Assembly (NCBI RefSeq): GCF_048128805.1
Contig: NC_136017.1
Coordinates: 5,178,807-5,242,806, forward strand
Length of the DNA stretch: 64,000 nucleotides
DNA from: Centroberyx gerrardi
Taxonomy: Eukaryota > Chordata > Actinopteri > Beryciformes > Berycidae
Direction of reading: 5' to 3'
Below the pieces are notes generated by a model that saw only the letters and a list, made by a program, of their open reading frames with translations, did no database searches and was not told the DNA's origin. Each line of letters starts with the position of its first letter. The stretch's first letter is position 1. Of the stretch, positions 1 through 50,744 are shown in pieces. Both the position numbers and the translations under genes were made by a program.

Positions 1-8826
<8,826 letters not shown>

Positions 8827-9671: not shown

Positions 9672-12108
9672 CACAATTACAATGTATTTTCATGAAAGAT
9701 GCTGTGCAATTCCTGAAACAAATTTTCAGTCCCATTTGTATTGTTACATTATTTTATTATTGCAATAAATTTTCTGACAAAGTGAGAAAATTAACGTTAG
9801 TGTGTGTGTTTGTGTGCATGTTGTCATCTAAAAGGATTTGCTTCTCCATAACCACACATTCATGCACAATAAAACAGAATTTTAGTAATTGTTTCTACTC
9901 CACAGCCATCATGCAAGAATTAAATGCAGATTTACATAAAAATACAGAATTTTAGATACTGTCAAGTAGCAATTTTAGATACTGTCAAGCATTTTCTTTT
10001 TTTAATTCAGTCACCACTTCAACCCTTTAGGTTATTTTTTATTGTATAAGTAGGCTGCATTTCCATTAGCAATAGAAACACAAAGGCTCAGTGGTACAGA
10101 ATCTTTTGTTTTGGGTGATTTGGGAGAAATTAAGAATTAAATTCATTTTATGTTCTATTGTCCCTGATATGATGAGCTGGGAAGTGTACTTTGTGGCAAA
10201 ATGACTTCTAATTCTGCTCATTTCTTTTGGTTAGATGATTATGAAAGACTTGAAATATGTTAATAAAACCTGAGAAAACATAGTTTGTTTGTATGATACC
10301 TGTGTGTGTTTGGAAACAGGTTCGTTATACACGAATTGCCATTTCATGTGTCAATGTGTTTTGTAAGCCCATGTGGGCTGGGACACCCAAATCAAATCAA
10401 ACCAAAGTAACCAAAGTTAAAAAAAAAAACTTTAATGCATTTCACTCTGTATTTCACATGCTATAGTGCCATCTAGTGGACAGAAATGTAGTGGTTTTCC
10501 AGAGATAAATATCTAGAGAATAACCTTTTCCCAGTATTCTTGAGAGATATTTTCAGGAATATAATGTCATCCAAGGAATGCTTGGTGATTGATTGATGAA
10601 GACTTCATTGTCAAAGCACATTTTTGGACATTACCTGAAGTTTATTATTCAAAAGATTATTCACTATCTCTAAAATAAAAATAACCAATTCTCTAAAAGT
10701 TTGGTCATTTTGTCAACCAAGGAGTTAAATTACCTGTCCACCATATTGTCCTGCAAAGATTTGCCATGATTTCTTTTAATGTTGTGCTATAAGTTTCATT
10801 TTGGAATGAATGAAGGCGTACAGATCACATCAGATCCTGTGTGTTTGTCTATTCATGGTGACATAATGGTAAAACACGTGAGACTCTGACACACAGCAGC
10901 TTATTGTGAAGCTTTCCAAACCACAGTGGGATAAACCATGGAGGAATGTTAATCTACATACTATTCTGAACACTTAAAATCCTAATCTGTGATCAAAATG
11001 GAACCAAATGGCAAATCAAAATATGGAAATGAAGATTTTTTGGGGGGGTTTTTCATTATAAAATTGTGGCCCAACCTGAGAAAACATTCAGACCTTTACA
11101 ATAGTATATTACATAATAGGGACTAATAAATTATTTTGCTAGATTTATTGATTATTGAATCAAAAAGGTTAATTTTAATCAAACTTTTTCTGATGTAAAA
11201 CGTGTCTCCTCTAAAGTTAAAGGAGCCTGGGTTTATAGTGTTTGGTGACAATTGATGAAAACAGTGTCCTAAACTTGTGTGACTGTTTACTGTGAGTTTC
11301 TAAATATATAAAGATGCAAACGTTTTGCTCTTTTTGTATATATACTGTTATAAAAATAAAGTTACTTTTTCATCTAGGTCGTCAAGCACTCAGTAGCTGT
11401 AAAATCAGATATTGATTACTAACAAAGTCAGTTTTTTGATAGAGGTACCATAATGTATTTTGATGATGATTGTATGATTATGACTGTGAATTGATTCTCA
11501 CATTCTTGCTAACGGTAAATGTATTTTGTGTAACCTGCCGTGCCTTCTTTACATAACGAGGGCCACACTGGAAATAAGTATCAGACCATATTATGACTTT
11601 CTTGGGGATTTTTAACGTGCTTAAGGTGTTTTAAAAGTCATCAATAAATCAAATCAAATTTACAGCTGGTGTAGCTATAATTCCTGCTACAAAATAAATA
11701 AAGCTTTCAAATAAAGCTGCAAGTAAAGGAGAGAGATCAGACCTGAGAGATTAAAGTCTTATAAACACGAGTCCATGAGGCTGGAAACGTGACCTACGGT
11801 CACCAGACTATGGACTGTGAGGTGACGTGTAATGCATTTCTGCCAATCAGCATTAATTAAATCCTACCTCTTGCCTTTCTGAGTGTGAACTGTTTCATCA
11901 CATTGACAGGTGGATTGAACCGGGGAGTGACCGAGCCAAATCCAAAGCAAACAGCTTCAATTGGCTTCAACCTATGAGGAAAGGTTTCATTTTGGTAAAC
12001 TTGGGGCGTTTGCCGACTGTAATACTCGTCGTTTTGCATTACATTTCCTCTATCCGACATATTCAGCAAACTAAGCTGTAAAAAAACTATTTTCCCACCA
12101 AAGGAATT

Positions 12109-15100
12109 ATGGCGGTCTGGTGGAATACAGGAGATATGTTGGACAGCCTGGACCTGGAGGAGAATTCAATAGTCTCTCGGGTAATTCAGGCAGTCGGGCT
12201 CTTTGGAGATATTCTTTCTTTAGAGGACACTATGGAGCCGATAGACTTCTTCTCTGAGGACCAAATAGAGGATGGGATTGGCAAAAGTCTTGACGGTGTT
12301 GAAGGGGCCGCAAAAGGTGAGCTGGAATTGACAAAAAGTCTTCAAGACACAGATGACAAAAAGGTAAAAGATGAGGAAACTCTGAGAGAAACAGTGACAA
12401 TGGAGAAAGATGGAGAGGAACTGTTGGAGAAAGAGAGAGAGAAGGACGAAAAGGCAGAAGAAGAAAAACAGATTGAGGACTGGAAGGATAAAAATGAAGG
12501 CAAAGGGGGAAACGAAAAGGAAGAGGAGGGGGGAAAGGAAGGGGAATGTATCGCAGAAAAAGAAAAACAGGAAGAAGTGGAGAAAGAGGAAAACATGGAA
12601 AAAGAAGATGACGGAAATGTGGAAATGGAGATAGCAAAGCAGGAAGAGGTGAGGGTGGCAGAAGAGGAAGAGAGTGATAAAAAGGTAGAGAAGCTGATAG
12701 AGGAAAAGGAAGAGGAAACAGTGGAGAAAGGTGGAGACGAGGAGAAGATTGAAGGAGAGAAAGTAGAAGCAGAAAAGGAAGAGGTGGACAGAGTGGAGAC
12801 AGAGAAAGACAAAAAGGTGGAAGAAGAAGAGAGAGAAGTAGAAAAGGGGAAATCCATGAAGGAGGAGAAAGAACATGTGGAAAAAGAGGAGACTACTGAG
12901 ATTGAAGAAGCAGAGACAAAGACCGAGAGAAAGAAGGAAGAAGAGGTGGATGAGAAAGAAAAAGAGGGACAGGAGAAAGTAGATGGGGAACAAGGAGGAG
13001 AGGCAATGGAGAAGATGGAAGGAGAGAAAGAGATAGAGAGACAGGAAGAAGATGAAAAAGAAGAGGAGGAGGCAGCAAGGGAACAAGTGGAGGAAGAAAA
13101 AGAGGTAGAGAAACACGAGGAAGAAGAGGTAGAGGAGAAAGAAGAAGAGACTGAGGTGAGGGAGCATGAAAAGTTGGTAGAGGAAGAGAAAGGAGAGAAG
13201 AACATAGGGAGACAAGAGGAAGAAGAGGTAGAGGAAAAGAAAGAAGCGAAAGAGGTTGCAAAGGATCAAGGAGAGAAGAAAGCGAAAGAGACAGAAAGAA
13301 AGGAGGATGAAGAGATTGAGGAAAAAGAAGAAGAGAACGAGGTGGAAAGAGAACAGAAAGAGAAGTCAGAGGAAGAAGCAAAGAAAGAGGTAGAGAGTAA
13401 TGAAGAAGAAGAGGTAAAGGTAAAGGAGGTAGAGGAAGAAGAAAAGGAGGTTATGAAGGAACAAGGAAAGAAGGAAGAGGAAGCAGAGAAAGAGATAGAG
13501 ATGGAAAGACACAAGGAAGAAGTGGTAGGAGAAAGAGAAGAAGAGAAGGAGGTAGAGAGGGAACAAGAAGAGGAGGTAGAGGAAGCAGAAAAAGAGATAG
13601 AGGAAGAAAAGGTAGAGGGAAAGGAAGAAGAAAATGAGGGAGCTAAGGAACAAGGATGGGAGGATGAGAAAGAAAAAGAAGCAAGGAAAACGAGAGCAAT
13701 AGAAAGACATGAGGAAGAAGAGGTAGGAGAAGAAGAAGAAGAGACAAAGGTAGAGAGGAAACAAAAAGAGAAGGCAAAGGAGGTAGAGGAGGAGAAAGAA
13801 GGAGACAAAGACATAGATATAGAGAGACATGAGGAAGAAGAGGTAGGGGAAAGAGAAGAAGAGAAAGGGGTTGAAAGGTTGGAAGAAGAGGAGGTAGAGG
13901 GGAAAGAAGAGAAAGAGCTAAAGAGGGAGCAAGGAGAGAAGACAGAGGAAGAGAAAGAAGGAAAGAAAGAGGTAGAGATGGAAAGATGGGAAGAAAACAT
14001 CAAAGAAAAAGAAGTAGACAAGGCAGAGGAAGAGAAGGAAGCAGACAAAGACATGGGGAGAAAGGAGGAAGAAGAGGTAGAGCCAAAGGAAGAAGAGAAG
14101 GAGATAGAGAGGGAACAAGGAGAGAAAGCCAAGGAGGAAGTAGAGAAGAAGAAGAAGAAGACGGAGAAAGAGGAACCAAATGACGTGGTACAGGAGAGTT
14201 CTCAGATCCAGCGCACTCCATCAGATTTACGCACATCATCGCTGTCGCCACCATCATCATCATCACCCCTACATGACCTCAAGTTCCCTAAAACACCGCT
14301 TAATGACGCTGAAGCTCCCAGAATCCTTATGGATCAAGAGAACAGCGCCGGAGCTGCTGCCAAAACCCACATCGCCAACGTTTGTCCCACATCGTCGAGC
14401 AGGGACAATGAGAGCGAGAACTCTTTGCCAAGCAGGGACCGGGCAGATCCCAACACAGAGCCCAACGCTGAACCCCAGACACCAACTCTAACTACTCTTC
14501 CCAAGTTTCTGAGAGAGACAAACGAAGAAGAATCGGCCGTGGGATTGAAGGACTCCAAGGGGGCACCGCCGTTGGAGACATTGCATGGATCGGACACTTC
14601 AGCTGAAGCGGAGAAGCGGCTTGCAGCGACATCGGCTGAGGAAGAAACACAGAGTTCAGGGAACCAAGAAGACTCAAGATCTTTGTCTTTGACATCATTT
14701 CCTCCTGCAGGACATCAAGGTGTTTTAGAAACTCTGTCACCGGAGGAAAAAGGCCAAACAGCATCTGAACCAGCAGCTGACGAAGACACCCGAGACACTG
14801 CACCTGAACTAAAGGTTCACCTAGAGAAAGGTAAACAAAATCAAGCCTCCAGAAATACTGTTAATACTACTACTACCACCAACACTACTACTACCATTAC
14901 AACTACTAGTACTACTACAACCCTACTACTACTACTACTATGACCATTACTACTACCACTACTACTACTACCACCACCACTGCTACTACCATTACTACTA
15001 CCATTAGTACAACCACCACTTCTACTAATACTCTAGTACTACTGTTGCTACTACTACTACTAGAAGGCCTGCTATTACTACTGCTGCTACTACAACAACT

Positions 15101-16047
15101 AGTATTACTACTACTGCTATTAGTACTAATACTACTAGTACTACTACTAATAATATAACTGTGCTGTAAAATCAAGTCAAATTAGGTGATCTGTAAGTCC
15201 AAATCAGTGAGGCAGATTGCACATTAGGCAACAAAAGTGATTTAAATTTTTCTATTTCCAGTTTGCCATAGTTGTAACTCTAACACCTTCAGTTAATTTG
15301 TTATCGGTCCTAAAATACTTGGCTGGATGTAGTTCAGTTTGGTTTAGAGGGTACAGAGTAGAGACTCTGTACCCTCTAAACTTGGTACAATCTTACATAA
15401 CAGCAATTATGATGAACTGGAATGACACAATTACACAAACTAGGGAATCAGGCTGGAGAGTTAATTAATTCACTCATTAAAATCTAATTAAAATTCCACA
15501 AAGTTGCCACTCATCAGTTGCCAAAAGCAAGTGTCTGATAATGACAAAGCCTCTCACGCAGACAATTAAATCACTTCATATCATGAATTAACATAGGGGC
15601 CTTTGACAAACAAGTTAAATATTTTACTAAAACAAAATTCTATTTCCACTTTTATATTCAGAGTTACTGGCATCAGGCTCCACATTGCTGGATGAGAAAG
15701 TGACATTGATGGACGCCACTGCTCAATCTGTGATGGGGGCCGGGCAAGGAAACAAAGAGATGGGTCCGACGCAGAACTCATCCGGCGGGGAATCGATAAG
15801 AAAACCTCAAGGAAACCAGGTGGAAGTGGAAGTGAAGGAGGAGGAGGAGGAGGAAGAGACGATGGAGGGACAGAAAGAGGAAGGAGGCCAAAACTCCCAT
15901 GAGATGAACGGTGAGGCGGAAGCAGCGGATGACAAGGAAAACAGCAGCGGTCAAACGTCAAAGTACAACACTGTGTCATACAGACGGATCCGGAAAGGCA
16001 ACACCAGACAGAGGATTGACGAGTTTGAGTTCATGATGAACTTGTGA
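12109..16047 (+). CDS. ermn: Ermin-like protein with giant Glu/Lys-rich middle and ERM actin-binding tail
   Basis: Coding exons are 12109-14830 and 15662-16047 (phase 1 junction, donor AAAG|GTAAAC, acceptor TATTCAG), giving 1035 residues. The N-terminus starts [19 protein letters not shown]. Residues about 80-690 are almost only E, K, R and V, in repeating [13 protein letters not shown]-type blocks, predicted to form a long charged single helix or coiled coil. Residues about 690-908 are Ser/Thr/Pro-rich and disordered. The last residues, [20 protein letters not shown] followed by EFEFMMNL, match the C-terminus of ermin ([22 protein letters not shown]) better than ezrin/moesin (YKTLRQIRQGNT). 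This tail binds F-actin in the ERM family. Mammalian ermin is an oligodendrocyte cytoskeletal protein of under 300 residues, so this one is several times longer. The family tail is seen directly; orthology to ERMN and the start codon are inferred. Confidence 0.75.
12340..14180 (+). repeat. 1.8-kb purine-rich coding tract
   Basis: Inside the ermin-like first exon nearly every base on the + strand is A or G. Recurrent units such as GAGGAAGAAGAGGTAGAGG give imperfect peptide repeats ([20 protein letters not shown] type). The complement strand shows long spurious open frames for the same reason. Confidence 0.9.
14831..15661 (+). other. Ermin-like intron with (TAC)n array and perfect palindrome
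   Basis: An array of TAC/ACC/ATT triplets runs from about 14,865 to 15,155 and begins right after the donor. The palindrome at 15342-15381 has 18-bp perfect arms (GTTTAGAGGGTACAGAGT) and the loop AGAG. Confidence 0.8.
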
Positions 16048-18803: not shown

Positions 18804-29721
<10,918 letters not shown>

Positions 29722-29964
29722 GGTGTGTGTGTGTGTGTGTCTGTGTGTGTGTCAAACGTGCATCAGGGTTCCTACGGTAACGTGATAGGAAAAGATAGAG
29801 AAATTGGTCTGTGCTTGCTCAAAAACAAAATTTAAATATCATAGAAATTAGTTTTTCAGCATCAAACTGAGCTTAGCTGAATATAAAAGGACAAACTGCT
29901 TTATATGTCATGAAATATGATGCGCAAAAACCTGTAGCAACCCTGATGTACACGTGTGACCTCC

Positions 29965-30005
<41 letters not shown>

Positions 30006-30153
30006 GTATACACTGGTGAACCTTCAGCCCGTTCAGGTTGGGGCTAAACTCAGGTGCCTTCTACGGCCAGGGACTGACTGAATGACTGTAATGCTGCACT
30101 GACTTAATCTACGGGCATTAAAACACCAGCATGTGAGTATGAGAGTGAGAGTG

Positions 30154-30193
<40 letters not shown>

Positions 30194-30327
30194 ACTAAAA
30201 CAGTGTGTCTGTGAGAGTGGGATCAGTCTTATTGTCTTAACGGTGACCCATCCAGGAAATGCAGTCCACAAAATCATCTTTTGAATGAGATTGTTGTAGC
30301 CAGTTTCAAAATCATGTGTGTGTGTGT

Positions 30328-30359
<32 letters not shown>

Positions 30360-32460
30360 CTGTGTGTGTGTCTGTGTGCGCCACTGCTGTTTTCTGTAAG
30401 CTAACAGTCATGAAGCCAATCTGATGAATGGAAATGTATATTTTTTTCAACAGATAATCTATATTTTGTAAATGTGGGTGGATTTGTGTGAGAATTTAAT
30501 GGTGTTGTTTTTTTTTTGATATTACAAGAGTGAACTGTTTTCATTTCCATATCTTCTCGCAAACTTTTTAATAAGTGGATTTTGTGAAGTGGCCTGGGAG
30601 GGGGTTTTCATCTTGGCAAGCTTGGTTTGGCAATCGGATTTTGTTTTACAGTCGGGTTCCTACGCGGGTTTCAAAATGTATGGAAAATGAGTTTTATAAT
30701 TTTTGGAAGTTGCACAAAAAGTCTGTAAAAGTATGAAAAAATACTGATGTTCAGACCTGATGTAAAAGTTGTGGCTACATATTGGTGATAGTTGATGCAC
30801 TGTTATTTCACAGGGGGGGGGGGATCTGGTTGTGATGAATAATCTTAAAGTCACATTGAAATGAAAAATTACTTTTTCACCTTTGTTAGCCAATTCAACA
30901 ATAAATGCCAAAAAAAAAAAAAATTTCAACAAAATCCTATTGCTTTTACTTCCTCGAAAACTGTATTTTTAGTGATTAGGCCGCTCCCATCACATAAAAC
31001 TTGCAACTTGGCTAGTATTTAATTTTTTGAAGAAGAAGTTGAAGATTACGCACAGAGCATTTTTGAGTTTTTGAACAGTCCCTCCTTCCACTCCAACATC
31101 CTGTTTCAACCAGAAATGAGCCAAATCACCGAAACATTAAGATGCCATTTCCTTGTGACTTTAAGCTACAGAGACAATACTGCCTTATCAAATTCCTCAA
31201 ATCCATTAAAAGAAATCAAAAGTCTGGAACATATGGAATGTCAAAATGTAAAATTCTCCAGGAACCCAGCTGTAGATGTAAAGGAAGTGAGTAGAGCTTT
31301 CTGTCTGAACCCGACAGGTGCTGATGGGGTCGGATAGGGAGGAATTTCTCAAATAAAAATGAGTCTGGCTCGGTTCAAACGGACAGGAAACTGACTGAGG
31401 CCAGTTAGGCCTTTAGAACCAAGTGGGACGTCCGCATGCCGGGACTAGACGGACTTGTGAGACTGACAAAATGTACCAATATTTGACAGGTGTCTGGTGC
31501 TTATTCAAAATATTGTCAAAGTGCTTTTTTTGACAGGTGTGTTGCAGACAGGGAAAGTCAGGAAATTTGATTAAGTCTCTGGGGAAGTTTACAAACGGGT
31601 CGCTTTACAGCAATATAGCAGAACGGGTTTTCCAACTCGTTTCGCACATTTGTTGCGTTGCATGGTGGTTTTCAGCCGGACTGCAGTGACTCTTTACCTC
31701 TTAGAAAAACTTTAACAAATCAGGAAGGAATAAAATCGTAGAAAAATCATGGAATTTGACCTCAGGTTCCACGGCGGGAAACCTGTTTTCATTTCAGCAG
31801 TTTCTTTTTTGACGAGCTGTAGTTTTAGTTTGCGCTCAACACAAATGGTTTCAGGTTTAACCCTTCGGCTCCCGTCGGGTTTGGACAGAAATCTTTCCGG
31901 GTCGAGCCAAGACTCAAAATGTCTAGTCCGTAATGTCAAGCTCTGTTAAGTGACGCTAACCCGTAAAACCCCAAAACACCATTAACCCAGCCATTACTTG
32001 AGTGTGATAAGATATCGAATTAACCATCAAATTTAAACTGTGAATTTCTCGGGTCCAGCAAGCGTTTACCGGAGTGAACGAGTCGCAGAAGTAAAAACAG
32101 AAGGAGCTGCTGGTGAAATATTTGAACCTAAAAGCCGGAGCGTGGATGGAAAAAGCTCTCCGTACGCTTTGATTAACGATGATCAATATATTCACGCTCA
32201 AAATGGATGCATCATTTTCAACGTGTTCAACATTTGTGTCGCTTTTTCTGCGATGAATAAGAACACTCAAAGGATTGTCCCATCGAATCCGGTGTTTTAA
32301 GACACTTTTACCACATAGATGTTCTTATTAAGGTGCTGAAAAGTGACACAAATGACCAGACTTTAAAAAAAAATGAACCATCCTTTTTTCTTTTTTTTTT
32401 TTTAAGAGTGTGCTATCAGGTTGTGAGCTGAGACTGCCTCCATTCTGCTGGTAATCGTAA

Positions 32461-32509
<49 letters not shown>

Positions 32510-33042
32510 AACCTTGTTCACAGTGCCTTCATAGCTCTAATAAAAGAAGTCTGATTGAAGCCGAACTCTCTCTGCGTGCGTCTCATCCTCCCCTTCCACC
32601 CCTTCTACTTCCCCTTTTTCTCTTCTTCTCTTAGGAAACACCTGCAGCGGGGGGGGGGGGGGGGGTGTTAGAAAACACGAGGGATGCTCTTCAATAAAAC
32701 ATCTCGCATGAAAAACCACAAAAAACTCCCTTAAATATCACCTTGTGTCACAGGGTGTGGCTCGGAGACGCCCCAACACACACACACACACACACACACA
32801 CACCGTCATAATATTACAGCAAACACAGATAAAGGCGTTTATGATATATTGGATAGAGAGAGATAATGGCGGTCAGTCTACTGTGACTGTCGGGGCAACC
32901 ATCATGTTTTCATACCAACACACCCCTATATGTAAAGTAGGTGATATCGCATGTGTGTGTGTGTGTGTGTGGTGTGTGTGTGTGCGGAGGGCATATTCCG
33001 TTCAGCAGGATCTAAAGACAGCCACTGTGAATACCTGAACCC
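29722..33042. other. znf513 3' end and spacer
   Basis: Several (GT)n arrays (about 29,724, 29,970, 30,157 and 30,315), a (CT)n at 32,461-32,505, a G run of about 17 at 32,650, a (CA)n at 32,776 and a GT array at about 32,951. A candidate znf513 poly(A) signal ATTAAA lies at about 30,115. A CATCCTGTTTCAACC-type repeat at about 31,095 recurs near 44,163. No gene seen. Confidence 0.5.
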
Positions 33043-34581
33043 ATGGGCCTAGTAAGTAAAACTGCAATTCTTTTATCATTTTTTCTATTATTTTTTAGTT
33101 GATCTCAATATTTATTATTAGAAATGATTGGTTTCTTAGTGCTGATCTCATTTACTCCCATGTGTTTTTATTTTAAACCGTCTCCAAGTCAGATTTCCCT
33201 GACAAGACGAGGACGGTTTGAGTTGAAGTGAGATGCATTTTAGATGTTTGTCTTATGTTTTTGCATCAAACTTTTTATTTAACCTTTAATTTATAAGCCT
33301 ATTAGCATAGACTGATAATTATGTTTATGTGTAATGTTCGAGCAAGATTTATTTGTGAGTGCATAAACATATTTGTGGATCTTATTTTATTTGTGTATCA
33401 TTCATATTATTTATTTGTCGATTTGATTTTATTTGTGACATGTTCACACTATTTATTTATTTAATTTTGAAACAATAATACCCCCCATAATAATGCACAG
33501 TGGCTTTTGATTGATTGATCCAGCTTTTGTTGTGATAAAAAAATAAAAAGTGACGCCTACTTTTACAGAATCATTGCTGGAATTAATGTGATTATTGAAT
33601 ATTGCTGAAGTAATCAGCAATCCTGAGTCCTTTACTTTATAAAACAGTAACATTTTAGAAGATGCTTTCATCTTTGGGCAGCCAGGTGATGATCTTTTCC
33701 TCAAGATGGATATATAGGATTTTGGCAGAGGCGGGGACTTGAGTCACAATTTGAATTACTTGAGACTTGACTTGAGTTCTGGTGACTTGGGACTTGACTC
33801 TGACTTGTATTTTATGAAGTTTTGATCCTATTAAAAACCATATTGCATTGAAAAGTCCTAGATATTTAGTTTTCTTTAAGATATTAAATTGATACTGGAC
33901 TCACTTAGTGTTCTACATTTAGACTTGGGACTTGACATTAATGACATGGACTTGACTTGGACTTGGCTTGGTAATCTACATTTAGACTTGGGACTAATGA
34001 CATGGACTTGATTTGGTAATCTACATTTAGACTTGGGACTAATGACATGGACTTGGCTTGGTAATCTAAATTTAGACTTGGGACTAATGACATGGACTTG
34101 GCTTGGTAATCTACATTTAGACTTGGGACTAATGACATGGACTTGGCTTGGTAATCTAACTTTAGACTTGGGACTAATGACATGGACTTGATTTGGTAAT
34201 CTACATTTAGACTTGGGACTTGACTTGAGACTGGTGCTTCAAGACTTGACACTGACTTGAGACTAGAGCAGAAGTTGACTTGGTCACACCTCTGGGTTTT
34301 TGAATGAAACTCTCTATGTGTTACAGGAAGTAATAAACATGTTTGCTTCCTTGTCCGGTCACTTTGTAGAAATACTCCCACCCCAAGGTGTTCCCGGGAG
34401 ACATCCTGGAGTATCCCAGGAACAAATACTTCTCCCACTTTGGGGTTTACTATGGAGAGCGGGACGGGGTTCCCTACGTCGCTCACCTGACCAGCAGAGG
34501 TGAGAGTTCTGTCTGTGTTCACATACTGGGAGCTGCCCAGTAAGACCACCATAGTCCTGTTGCTGCACTGTTGTCATGTAA

Positions 34582-34619
<38 letters not shown>

Positions 34620-36511
34620 AGATTCAGAGTCCAAGCTCGTGCTGTTTGGCAGAGCTCTGAGGTCAGAGGTCAAGCTGGACCCAGTGGAGCTAGTGGGGAA
34701 AAAATACAAGGTACCACACACACACACACACACACTGGTACACTATTCATACTTTAATAAACAGAAATATCTATCTATCTATCTATCTATCTCTCTATCT
34801 ATCTATCTATCTAATGCAGTATGGATCCCCCTGCTGGTGGTTGTAAAAAGTTTGCATGTATTGACCTGTAATGTGGGATATGTTGGACTAAGAAAGATAG
34901 GGTATTTTCCACTCAGGCTTTTATGTGAATATACCCACAATTTAGATGATCAAATGAAGTCCTGGAAGGACTGGCACAAGTTGTCCAAACTGTTTTTCTG
35001 TTGTTGTTTTTTTTAATTAAATTTGTGTAGATTTATAGACTTTGCAAGTAAAATAAAAGCTAGTAGACGCACACACATACAAAACAAATTTGTTTCCAAA
35101 GCGCTGTATTATACATTTCAGAAAAAAAAAAAAATATATTGAAGTAAAAGGTAAAAGGAACAAGGTGTATTCCTCACACTGCCAAAAAAAAAAAAAAATC
35201 TAGTCAAAAATAATCAAATATATTATAAAAAATATATGGTGCTAAACTTAAAGGACTAGAGATCAGACATTTCAGCTCATTGCTATCTTCAGTCTGCTGT
35301 CAGTCATGTTTTAATTGAGCCTCGCTGTGACTTTTCTCATCATGTCTTCATGTCATGATGCAGGTCAGCAACATGCTGGACGACTCGTTCCCAGCCCGGG
35401 ACTTCCACAGCCTGGTGAAGCCGGCCATAGACGACCTGTTGGGTCGGGAGGTCACCTTCGACATCCTGTTCCACAACAGCGAGCACCAGGCCACACTCTT
35501 CAGATACGGGGTCAAGAAGTCTGAGCAGGTGGGTGAGGAGGGGGGGGGGGGGGGTGCTTCAGAGTCTCTCTATCCACCTACCTACCTGCTAAATTAAATG
35601 TTTATGTCTTCTTTCTGCCTGTATAATGTATAACTGACTGTATAGCTGCTCCACTGGCGGCCATTTTGGAGGGCAATACAACTTGTCCGTCTCAACAGAA
35701 TTCAACATTGTTCATTTCTGTGAGTTTTTTGACTGGGAACTGATAAGTTTGCCACTGATAAATGTGTGTTTAGGTCATTTCAGCTCATTACTACAGATAT
35801 TATGGTCTGTTTAGCTATTAAAGTCTTATTGTAAACACAACATTAGCACACTAGCTAACGTATCTAGTAGCAGCTAGCGTTAGCATGTTCACATTAACAT
35901 CAGTGTGTTTGCTGGCTAGTTAGCTAGCTAACAGTTTGTTCAGGTTAAGACAAGACAGTTTACTGTGTGTGCTACGAAACCAAACCCCTTCATTTTATCC
36001 CTGAAATGTCTTTCATTTCTCATTACATAAACATTAATTATCCATTAAAAATCAGCTTTAAAAAAGTAAGGTTAGTATCATGGGTTTTTAAGGGATTTTT
36101 CATGCCTTTTATGCATGGTTTAGAGTTATTAATGAGTTATTAATGGAAAGTTCCTGTCTCCCTGAATTTTACATTCAATTAGAAAGTAAGGAGTCAAACA
36201 TTAAGGAGTGTTTAAGGTGGTTTTGATGGGGTCTCCTCCATTAATAACTCCCGTAATTAATTTTAAGGGGATTTTGCATGAATTAAGGGGTGAATTAATG
36301 TAAATGTAAAGTTATTTTAAGGGATTATCCTGGTTCGTAGAGGTCACAGTGACCTACATTTGGGAATAAATCCACCTTATCACACTATTCACTTTTACTG
36401 AGAACGTTACTGAATGGATCTCTCTGGGTTGGGATACTAATCATGTATGTGTGCACTCATGGTACTCTGGATGAAAACTCCCACCATATAAAAACATATC
36501 ATGAAAACCTG

Positions 36512-36546
<35 letters not shown>

Positions 36547-36616
36547 GCAGATAGAGAAGGTCTATGAACACATCATGCCGGCATGGAAGAAGCTGTTTGA
36601 GAAGAAGCAGCTGTGA
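33043..36616 (+). CDS. PLAAT/LRAT-fold protein with Cys-to-Ser active site
   Basis: Exons 34370-34499, 34622-34710, 35364-35528 and 36551-36616 have consistent phases and end in TGA. A tiny first exon MGL (33043-33051, donor CTA|GTAAGT, phase 0) fits the reading frame but is tentative. With it the protein is 152 residues, the size of PLAAT/HRASLS phospholipase-acyltransferases. The first catalytic His is present in KYFSHFGVYYG (H26) and the second in PYVAHLTS (H42). The NCEH nucleophile motif reads HNSEH (S115, codon AGC). The DELRYG-like RYGVKKSEQ follows. The C-terminal hydrophobic anchor of PLAATs is replaced by a short basic tail ending KKLFEKKQL. Related LRATD proteins also have Ser here and are thought inactive. 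Either a pseudoenzyme or a Ser variant; function unknown. Confidence 0.8.
33052..34369 (+). other. PLAAT-like intron 1 containing a minisatellite
   Basis: The intron ends in CACTTTGTAG. A Thr/Leu-type GACTTGGGACTTGAC repeat region begins near 33,735 and becomes a regular 45-bp array at about 33,925-34,240. An unsupported first exon would make this upstream sequence instead. Confidence 0.55.
33925..34240 (+). repeat. 45-bp minisatellite, about six copies
   Basis: The unit contains GACTTGGGACTAATGACATG followed by GACTTGGCTTGGTAATCTAC. Copies differ at a few positions (GGCTTGG or GATTTGG). Being a multiple of three, it gives a false 15-residue repeat on the - strand. Confidence 0.9.
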
Positions 36617-49130: not shown

Positions 49131-50744
49131 GCAGTGAACACCCAAAAATGCACCGCTGCCACCCATGTCACTTTAAAAGTTATGCAGTTGCAGGTTTTAT
49201 ATGATGGGAGGGGCGGAGGCAGAGGGGGGTGTTTAAAAATCTGTGATGGTTTTATTGGTTGGAATTTTTATATTGCCTACTGGTACAACATGAAGTAACT
49301 AAAAATACACTTCCTGTTTCCCAGGACGTGAAAGTGATGGGATGTTGATATAAAATTACAATAAAGTAAAGATTTGTACATGTTTTGGCATTTATTGTAA
49401 AAAAGAAAGTGTACATTTTGATATGGAGAAACAAGGTGAAAAAATGACATTTTTCATTTCATTGTGACTTTAACCTGCTTCTTCTTCTTCTTCTTCTTCT
49501 TCTTCTTCTTCTTCTTCTTCTTCTTCTTCTTCTTCTTCTTCTTCTTCTTCGTACTAGTAGTAGTGGTAGTATTATTACCAATAATCATTACCTCCACCAG
49601 GGCAGTAATACACAAAACTTGGCATGAAGGCTAATAATGATGATATCTACAGCAGATTAGTCGCCCTTAATCGCTGGCTGGCCAAGTACTGTGAGCAACA
49701 GGGTTTTATGTTTTTAGATAACTGGCCCTCCTTCTGGGGTAAACCTGGCATGCTTAAGACAGATGGCATACACCCTACTGGGTTGGGTGCCCACATTTTG
49801 TCTAGGAACATGGACAGGTGCTTGAGACAGGCATGACACACTCCCCTAAGGCATGCTGGGTCGCAGGTTGTTAGACAGCCTGCCAGGACTTCACCTAGTG
49901 CGGGTTTGGAGTCTGATAGCTCAGATAGCTTAGTGTATCCAATCTTGACTGTGTCCCGCCCTCGCCGTGGCACCTTTTGCCATCGCAGAGACAAACATTC
50001 TCAGCATAACCTTATTCATATCGACCCTTCTGGCAGCAGCATTGACTCTACAACAAACTGTATTACGTACTCGCAAATCAAACCTTAATACACGCTTTTG
50101 TTTCATCAAGACTCGATTATTGTAATGTCTTACTCTCTGGCCTACCTAACTGCAGTATTAAAAAACTACAACTGGTGCAAAATGCTGCTGCCAGAATACT
50201 AACCAGAACTAGAAAATTTGACCACATTACTCCTATCCTAACCTCCCTTCACTGGCTCCCAATTCAAGCCAGATCTGACTTTAAGATGCTTCTGTTAGCT
50301 TATAAATCGTTGCATGGGCTTGCACCATCATATCTATCCGACCTCATCATCCCTTATATTCCCCCTCGTGCCCTCCGATCGCAGGACGCTGGCTACCTTA
50401 CTGTCCATAGAATCAAGAAAAAATCAGCAGGCAGTAGAGCTCCCTATCTCCGGAACCAGCTACCTCTTACAGTCAGGGAAGCTAATTCTGTCGAAATCTT
50501 CAAATCTAGACTCAAAACCTATCTTTTCTCGCAGTCATACGACCTACCTTAGCACCGTTGGCCTGGGCTCGACACAGTCTATTCTCTTACCCTAGCTTAG
50601 ACAGTATTTATAAGGAAATTTGCCGTTGGGAACATAGCATAGGGCTGCCTCCTGGTTACACTGTGTCTAATCACTTCCTATCTGCTGTCTGTATGAGCGT
50701 GTCTGTGCCCAAATACGTCTGGGTCTTGTGCTGCTTCTGCACAG

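Follow-up and report, generated by a model that had tools for sequence, protein, structure and literature searches.

The PLAAT, LRAT and LRATD proteins are the closest described relatives of the gene reported here, and published work already bears on what a loss of the catalytic Cys may mean in them. An engineered C113S form of PLAAT3 is used as its lipase-dead version (PMC12017856, PMC9338259). PLAAT3 with a truncated hydrophobic tail is found off membranes and its phospholipase activity is abolished in vitro; PLAAT5 is naturally without such a tail and is mostly cytosolic (PMC4624172). In human FAM84B/LRATD2 the two His remain but the Cys is gone, and the protein is stated to be without the activities (PMC7140883). 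Human LRATD1 and LRATD2 are described as N-myristoylated (PMC8689648), and knockdown of LRATD2 is reported to delay the transport of EGFR from the ER to the Golgi (PMC8536394). Natural Cys-to-Ser swaps in papain-like folds have been called intriguing and poorly explored (PMC10318531). Among the matches listed in our literature search we found no published report of a Ser-bearing PLAAT in fish (titles and abstract openings) and no related publication on a PLAAT as a pseudoenzyme.

The gene described here lies on the plus strand of a 64,000-nucleotide stretch of DNA from Centroberyx gerrardi (the window, from whose first letter positions are counted). We found it to be an intact member of the LRAT/PLAAT superfamily whose product, judged from its sequence, is probably an inactive pseudoenzyme that binds a lipid or a protein partner. 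Its four exons give a spliced translation of 149 codons plus a stop codon that is open throughout; all of its splice sites are GT-AG and the intron phases are 1, 0 and 0, in agreement with an earlier note on this DNA that had described frame and splice structure as intact. The exons, with a tentative start exon, are as follows.

33043-33051, plus strand: candidate start exon MGL (tentative), donor CTA/GTAAGT, phase 0 with the exon at 34370
34370-34499, plus strand: exon with the GD motif and both catalytic-type His (FSHFGVYYG, YVAHLTS), phase 1 donor
34622-34710, plus strand: exon with the rest of the split Asp codon, then SESKLVLFGRALRSEVKLDPVELVGKKYK, phase 0 donor
35364-35528, plus strand: exon with HNSEH (Ser codon AGC at 35478-35480, at the Cys site) and the RYG motif
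36551-36616, plus strand: last exon, IEKVYEHIMPAWKKLFEKKQL and the stop codon, without a hydrophobic anchor

The product reads KYSHPKVFPGD...FSHFGVYYG...YVAHLTSR/D... and later FHNSEHQATLFRYGVKKSEQ/IEKVYEHIMPAWKKLFEKKQL before the stop; the domain is spread over three exons, and the gene structure is intact from 34370 onward. Elsewhere in the window, the gene is preceded by a C2H2 zinc-finger reading frame (28999-29718) and followed, on the minus strand, by EPHX2-like pieces. A long open exon at 5965-8824, which we take to resemble DUSP27/STYXL2, ends in a dual-specificity phosphatase match (PF00782). A 953-aa Glu/Lys-rich open frame without a Pfam match (12082-14940) precedes an Ermin/ERM C-terminal match (PF20491) at 15631-16044, and the open frame at 50046-50549, also without a Pfam match, is presumably the end of a LINE reverse transcriptase. 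A tandem-looking repeat with a ACTTGGGACTAATGACATGGACTTG-type unit occupies 33900-34230, just upstream of the exon at 34370; an intron of the plaat1-like gene on C9 holds a similar GACTTGGACTTGAG-rich stretch.

The product matches the Pfam LRAT family (PF04970) with an E value of 1.1e-12 and 48.7 bits against a cut-off of 24.3, over profile positions 3-119 of 120; no NCBIfam family matches the 149-aa product. Its best solved relative is PLAAT2 (E 1.4e-10 in a PDB sequence search), and the nine distinct PDB sequences that match comprise PLAAT2, PLAAT3, PLAAT4 and a PLAAT3/LRAT chimera, with current names in place of those used by the depositors. Both H-box His are present, where the PLAAT criterion is two His, or His plus Asn in PLAAT1, and they stand in the two contexts that the earlier note had read as conserved. 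The nucleophilic Cys of the PLAAT NC motif, the catalytic Cys of LRAT, is absent: the motif is NSEH, the codon at the site is AGC, and three PDB alignments (PLAAT2 and two of PLAAT3) pair the Ser with the PLAAT Cys, which confirms the replacement first noticed from the letters alone. The two His are separated by 15 residues, compared with 11 in all 13 other rows of the alignment, and the Phe that follows NxEH is replaced by Gln. Contig scans for viral and prokaryote relatives with the 149-aa query gave 21 and 39 pattern stretches, respectively, none of which was confirmed.

The in-frame codon directly before 34370 is a stop, so a start exon is needed upstream. Of the 152 residues first ascribed to the product, 149 come from the exons then noted and the remaining three need a start exon outside them; MGL at 33043-33051 would bring the total to 152. 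Within 29723-34369 we found four candidates of at most 30 codons with a donor score of at least 2.5, namely 31233-31286 (4.2), MGL at 33043 (3.2), 33662 (3.2) and 32904 (2.6), the donor weights being vertebrate donor frequencies. The MGL exon drops out at a stricter donor cut-off of 4, and a looser pattern gave nine candidate rows; by chance, 0.237 candidates of at most five codons with an MGL-level score are expected per 1.32 kb. With MGL, 12 residues precede the GD motif, the same number as in the modelled C17 paralogue (MAPVL exon). MGL is thus one of several candidate start exons; if right, it would give the product an N-myristoylation-like MGLKYS start as in LRATD proteins. An MG start is a signal for N-myristoylation under the motif rule.

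At the other end of the protein, the last exon used encodes no C-terminal hydrophobic anchor; its peak 18-residue hydropathy is -0.53 versus 2.24 in the C16 paralogue. The proposal that a basic tail had replaced the anchor thus holds for the anchor, while the tail is only mildly basic (five Lys and three Glu). Ranking other possible last exons by hydropathy and taking the top six gave four repeat-like or T-rich frames; the other two (1.68 and 1.63) remain candidates. A scan for the last exons of the paralogues gave a clear hydrophobic one for C16 only and none that was convincing for C9, C17, C12 and C14, so the last introns of these four rest on the donor side. Because PLAAT5 is also without an anchor, its absence is not peculiar to the window gene.

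A search of the genome with the LRAT profile gave at least 15 exon matches, grouped into at least 12 genes; the window gene was absent from these matches and was added as a thirteenth. Counts from this kind of search are lower bounds. Ser is found at the Cys site in five of the 13 genes (the window gene, a gene at 14.54 Mb on C12 and three LRATD genes) and Cys is kept in the other eight. The three LRATD proteins of this genome are also His-His-Ser, and the analogy that the earlier note drew with LRATD is supported. The C12 gene (L023, G000:C12:14535500-14545000, ~4288-5332, minus strand) is spliced and reads NSEH, and its first His is missing too (FSLWGVY); NCEH and SHWGVY are both present in its C14 sister (L024). 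Two adjoining LRAT-like genes at G000:C3:16086556-16089183 each have NCEH in an unspliced domain. An LRAT-like piece on C23 (L025, G000:C23:3260000-3269000, ~2968-3096, minus strand) also has NCEH and is split or incomplete; its match covers the last third of the LRAT profile only (76-118 of 120).

Intron positions, read by eye, connect the window gene to its spliced paralogues. Those on C9, C12 and C14 have a phase-1 intron after the H-box exon that splits the same Asp codon, those on C16 and C17 have a break at the same place and phase, and the phase-0 break after the SEQ motif is common to the window gene and the spliced paralogues. The KYK/VSN intron is private to the window gene, and the five spliced paralogues (C9, C12, C14, C16 and C17) read through it. 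In three LRAT-type genes (two on C3 and one on C23) no intron interrupts the domain, and in the two that were checked the next donor comes three codons later.

A tree was built from 14 rows, made up of 12 of the 13 genes and two human rows; the C23 gene at 3.26 Mb was left out, a single exon having been read. No other row ends in a branch nearly as long as that of the window gene (1.81 changes per column). In the best tree the gene is joined with LRAT, at a support of 72/79, which is not firm. In tests of groups that were picked after the residues had been seen, and that long branches weaken, grouping the window gene with PLAAT (p-AU 0.191), with LRATD (0.219) or with the C12/C14 pair (0.21) was not rejected. 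A tree of PLAAT, LRAT and LRATD, as the earlier note had proposed, here puts the gene at the end of a long branch close to one of the three, with no firm placing. An arrangement with all five Ser rows in one group was rejected (p 0.0097), as was one with the window gene and the C12 Ser gene as sisters (p-AU 0.005); the C12 gene is instead the sister of the Cys-bearing C14 gene, with support of 96/99. These comparisons support at least two, perhaps three, origins of the Ser in the superfamily within this genome, one of which the window gene may share with LRATD. The assignment of the window gene to the PLAATs is partly supported: its domain is of the LRAT/PLAAT type and two of its introns are at PLAAT positions, whereas the best tree places it, not firmly, with LRAT and a grouping with PLAAT is not rejected. 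Because of the intron positions we favour a PLAAT-type ancestry over the tree's weak placing with LRAT.

It is unlikely that the gene is a spliced LRATD relative whose Ser is the ancestral one of LRATD, as opposed to a PLAAT in which the Cys was lost separately. The grouping with the three LRATD rows is not rejected, both are His-His-Ser, and the window gene would share the MG start of the three LRATD proteins here, if MGL is right; but the LRATD genes here each consist of a single open frame, unlike the window gene with its introns of the PLAAT type, LRATD has no counterpart of the segment from the H-box to the SEVK region, and the best tree places the window gene, not firmly, with LRAT.

In the pseudoenzyme that we favour, the product would keep the domain and both His without the thiol needed to attack the acyl ester. 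Acyl chains would be neither transferred nor released, and the protein would bind its lipid or protein partner, for example in competition with active PLAATs. Membrane contact, if any, would be made via an N-terminal myristoyl group, if the MGL exon is right, and not via a C-terminal anchor. A binding role is favoured because C113S kills PLAAT3, because PLAAT3 needs its tail for activity and because LRATD2 lacks the Cys. Three observations weigh against parts of this proposal: both His have been held over a long branch, which would also fit a Ser nucleophile; the MGL donor competes with two other candidates that score as well or better (31233-31286 and 33662); and two hydrophobic alternative last exons exist.

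A lipid acyltransferase or phospholipase in which His-26 activates Ser-115 and His-42 orients His-26 (numbering with MGL) is possible, less likely than a binding pseudoenzyme and on the whole improbable. We keep it in play because neither His has been lost and the N-x-E-H frame is intact. Retention of the His is not automatic, since the spliced Ser gene on C12 has lost its first His, to Leu. Papain-like families that use serine have been reported, and Cys-to-Ser mutants of two papain-like enzymes are said to stay partly active (PMC10318531). Against a working Ser stand the inactive C113S form of PLAAT3 (PMC12017856, PMC9338259), the four extra residues between the two His, the Gln for Phe after NxEH, the Phe for an invariant Tyr, and the three His-His-Ser LRATD proteins here, whose human counterpart FAM84B is described as inactive (PMC7140883).

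The open frame and the spliced structure count in favour of the pseudoenzyme, and the domain looks constrained because the window gene keeps 12 of the 15 columns that are invariant in nine Cys-bearing rows, a count that leaves out the four other Ser rows. In the three that differ, Ile replaces Leu, Phe replaces Tyr and Ser replaces Cys. With all 13 rows it keeps eight of nine invariant columns, and when agreement in 85% of the nine Cys-bearing rows is enough, 20 of 29, at pairwise identities to its relatives of 24-38%. The longer spacing of the two His (15 residues, not 11) speaks against full constraint. When the C9 plaat1-like gene was allowed to drift neutrally to 33% identity, 1 of 400 runs (GC40) and 11 of 400 (GC55) stayed free of stops; at 60% identity the figures were 15 or 40 of 400, depending on base composition. 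GC3 is 0.78 in the window gene versus a GC of 0.33-0.50 across its own introns, and in the paralogues it is 0.77-0.82 (C9, C16 and C17), 0.59 (C12) and 0.51 (C14). The conservation and drift results argue for a gene that has long been under selection; its present state lies outside what they address. A recent loss of function in this species, with Cys-to-Ser as an early lesion, would agree with an AGC codon one base from TGC and with the long branch; it is distinctly improbable given four exons without a stop, frameshift or broken splice site and the invariant columns that are kept. An assembly or read error at 35478-35480 is highly improbable: a DNA search of the assembly with the exon at 35364-35528 found no second copy or haplotype beyond the window itself, so there is one matching place only, but the surrounding frame is clean and an error would leave the Gln after NSEH, the Phe for Tyr and the insertion unexplained.

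Beyond the pseudoenzyme itself, the sequence comparisons allow a bolder, doubtful suggestion: the gene may represent a separate vertebrate LRAT-fold lineage, with Ser for Cys and a myristoyl group for the anchor, that reached the LRATD design independently and perhaps carries out His-His-Ser lipid turnover. The change is of an unusual but not unheard-of kind, and at least two, perhaps three, independent Cys-to-Ser swaps in one superfamily occur in this genome, one of them beside a Cys-bearing sister. With PLAAT1-4 (HRASLS) the window gene shares the LRAT domain, the H-box His, N-x-E-H and the RYG frame, and with the spliced PLAAT-type paralogues the phase-1 intron after the H-box exon and the phase-0 break after the SEQ motif. 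It differs from PLAAT1-4 in its Ser, in the last exon without a hydrophobic anchor, in an extra intron and in the four residues added between the His, and the tree does not join it firmly to them. LRAT has the highest identity to it (38% over 113 aligned columns, for the C3b gene) and a THFG/SHFG-like H-box, but in the three LRAT-type genes read the domain is unspliced and the Cys is kept. LRATD1 and LRATD2 (FAM84A/B) have both His and a Ser at the Cys site within an NSE motif (three LRATD rows here), but they are proteins of 262-281 aa in one open frame without the central stretch, whereas the window gene encodes 149 residues in four exons. The C12 paralogue is likewise spliced with NSEH for NCEH, and it differs in the lost first His and the Cys-bearing sister on C14; the His-His-Ser window gene and this Leu-His-Ser paralogue are a natural pair for asking if Ser can be functional in this fold or signals a change to binding.
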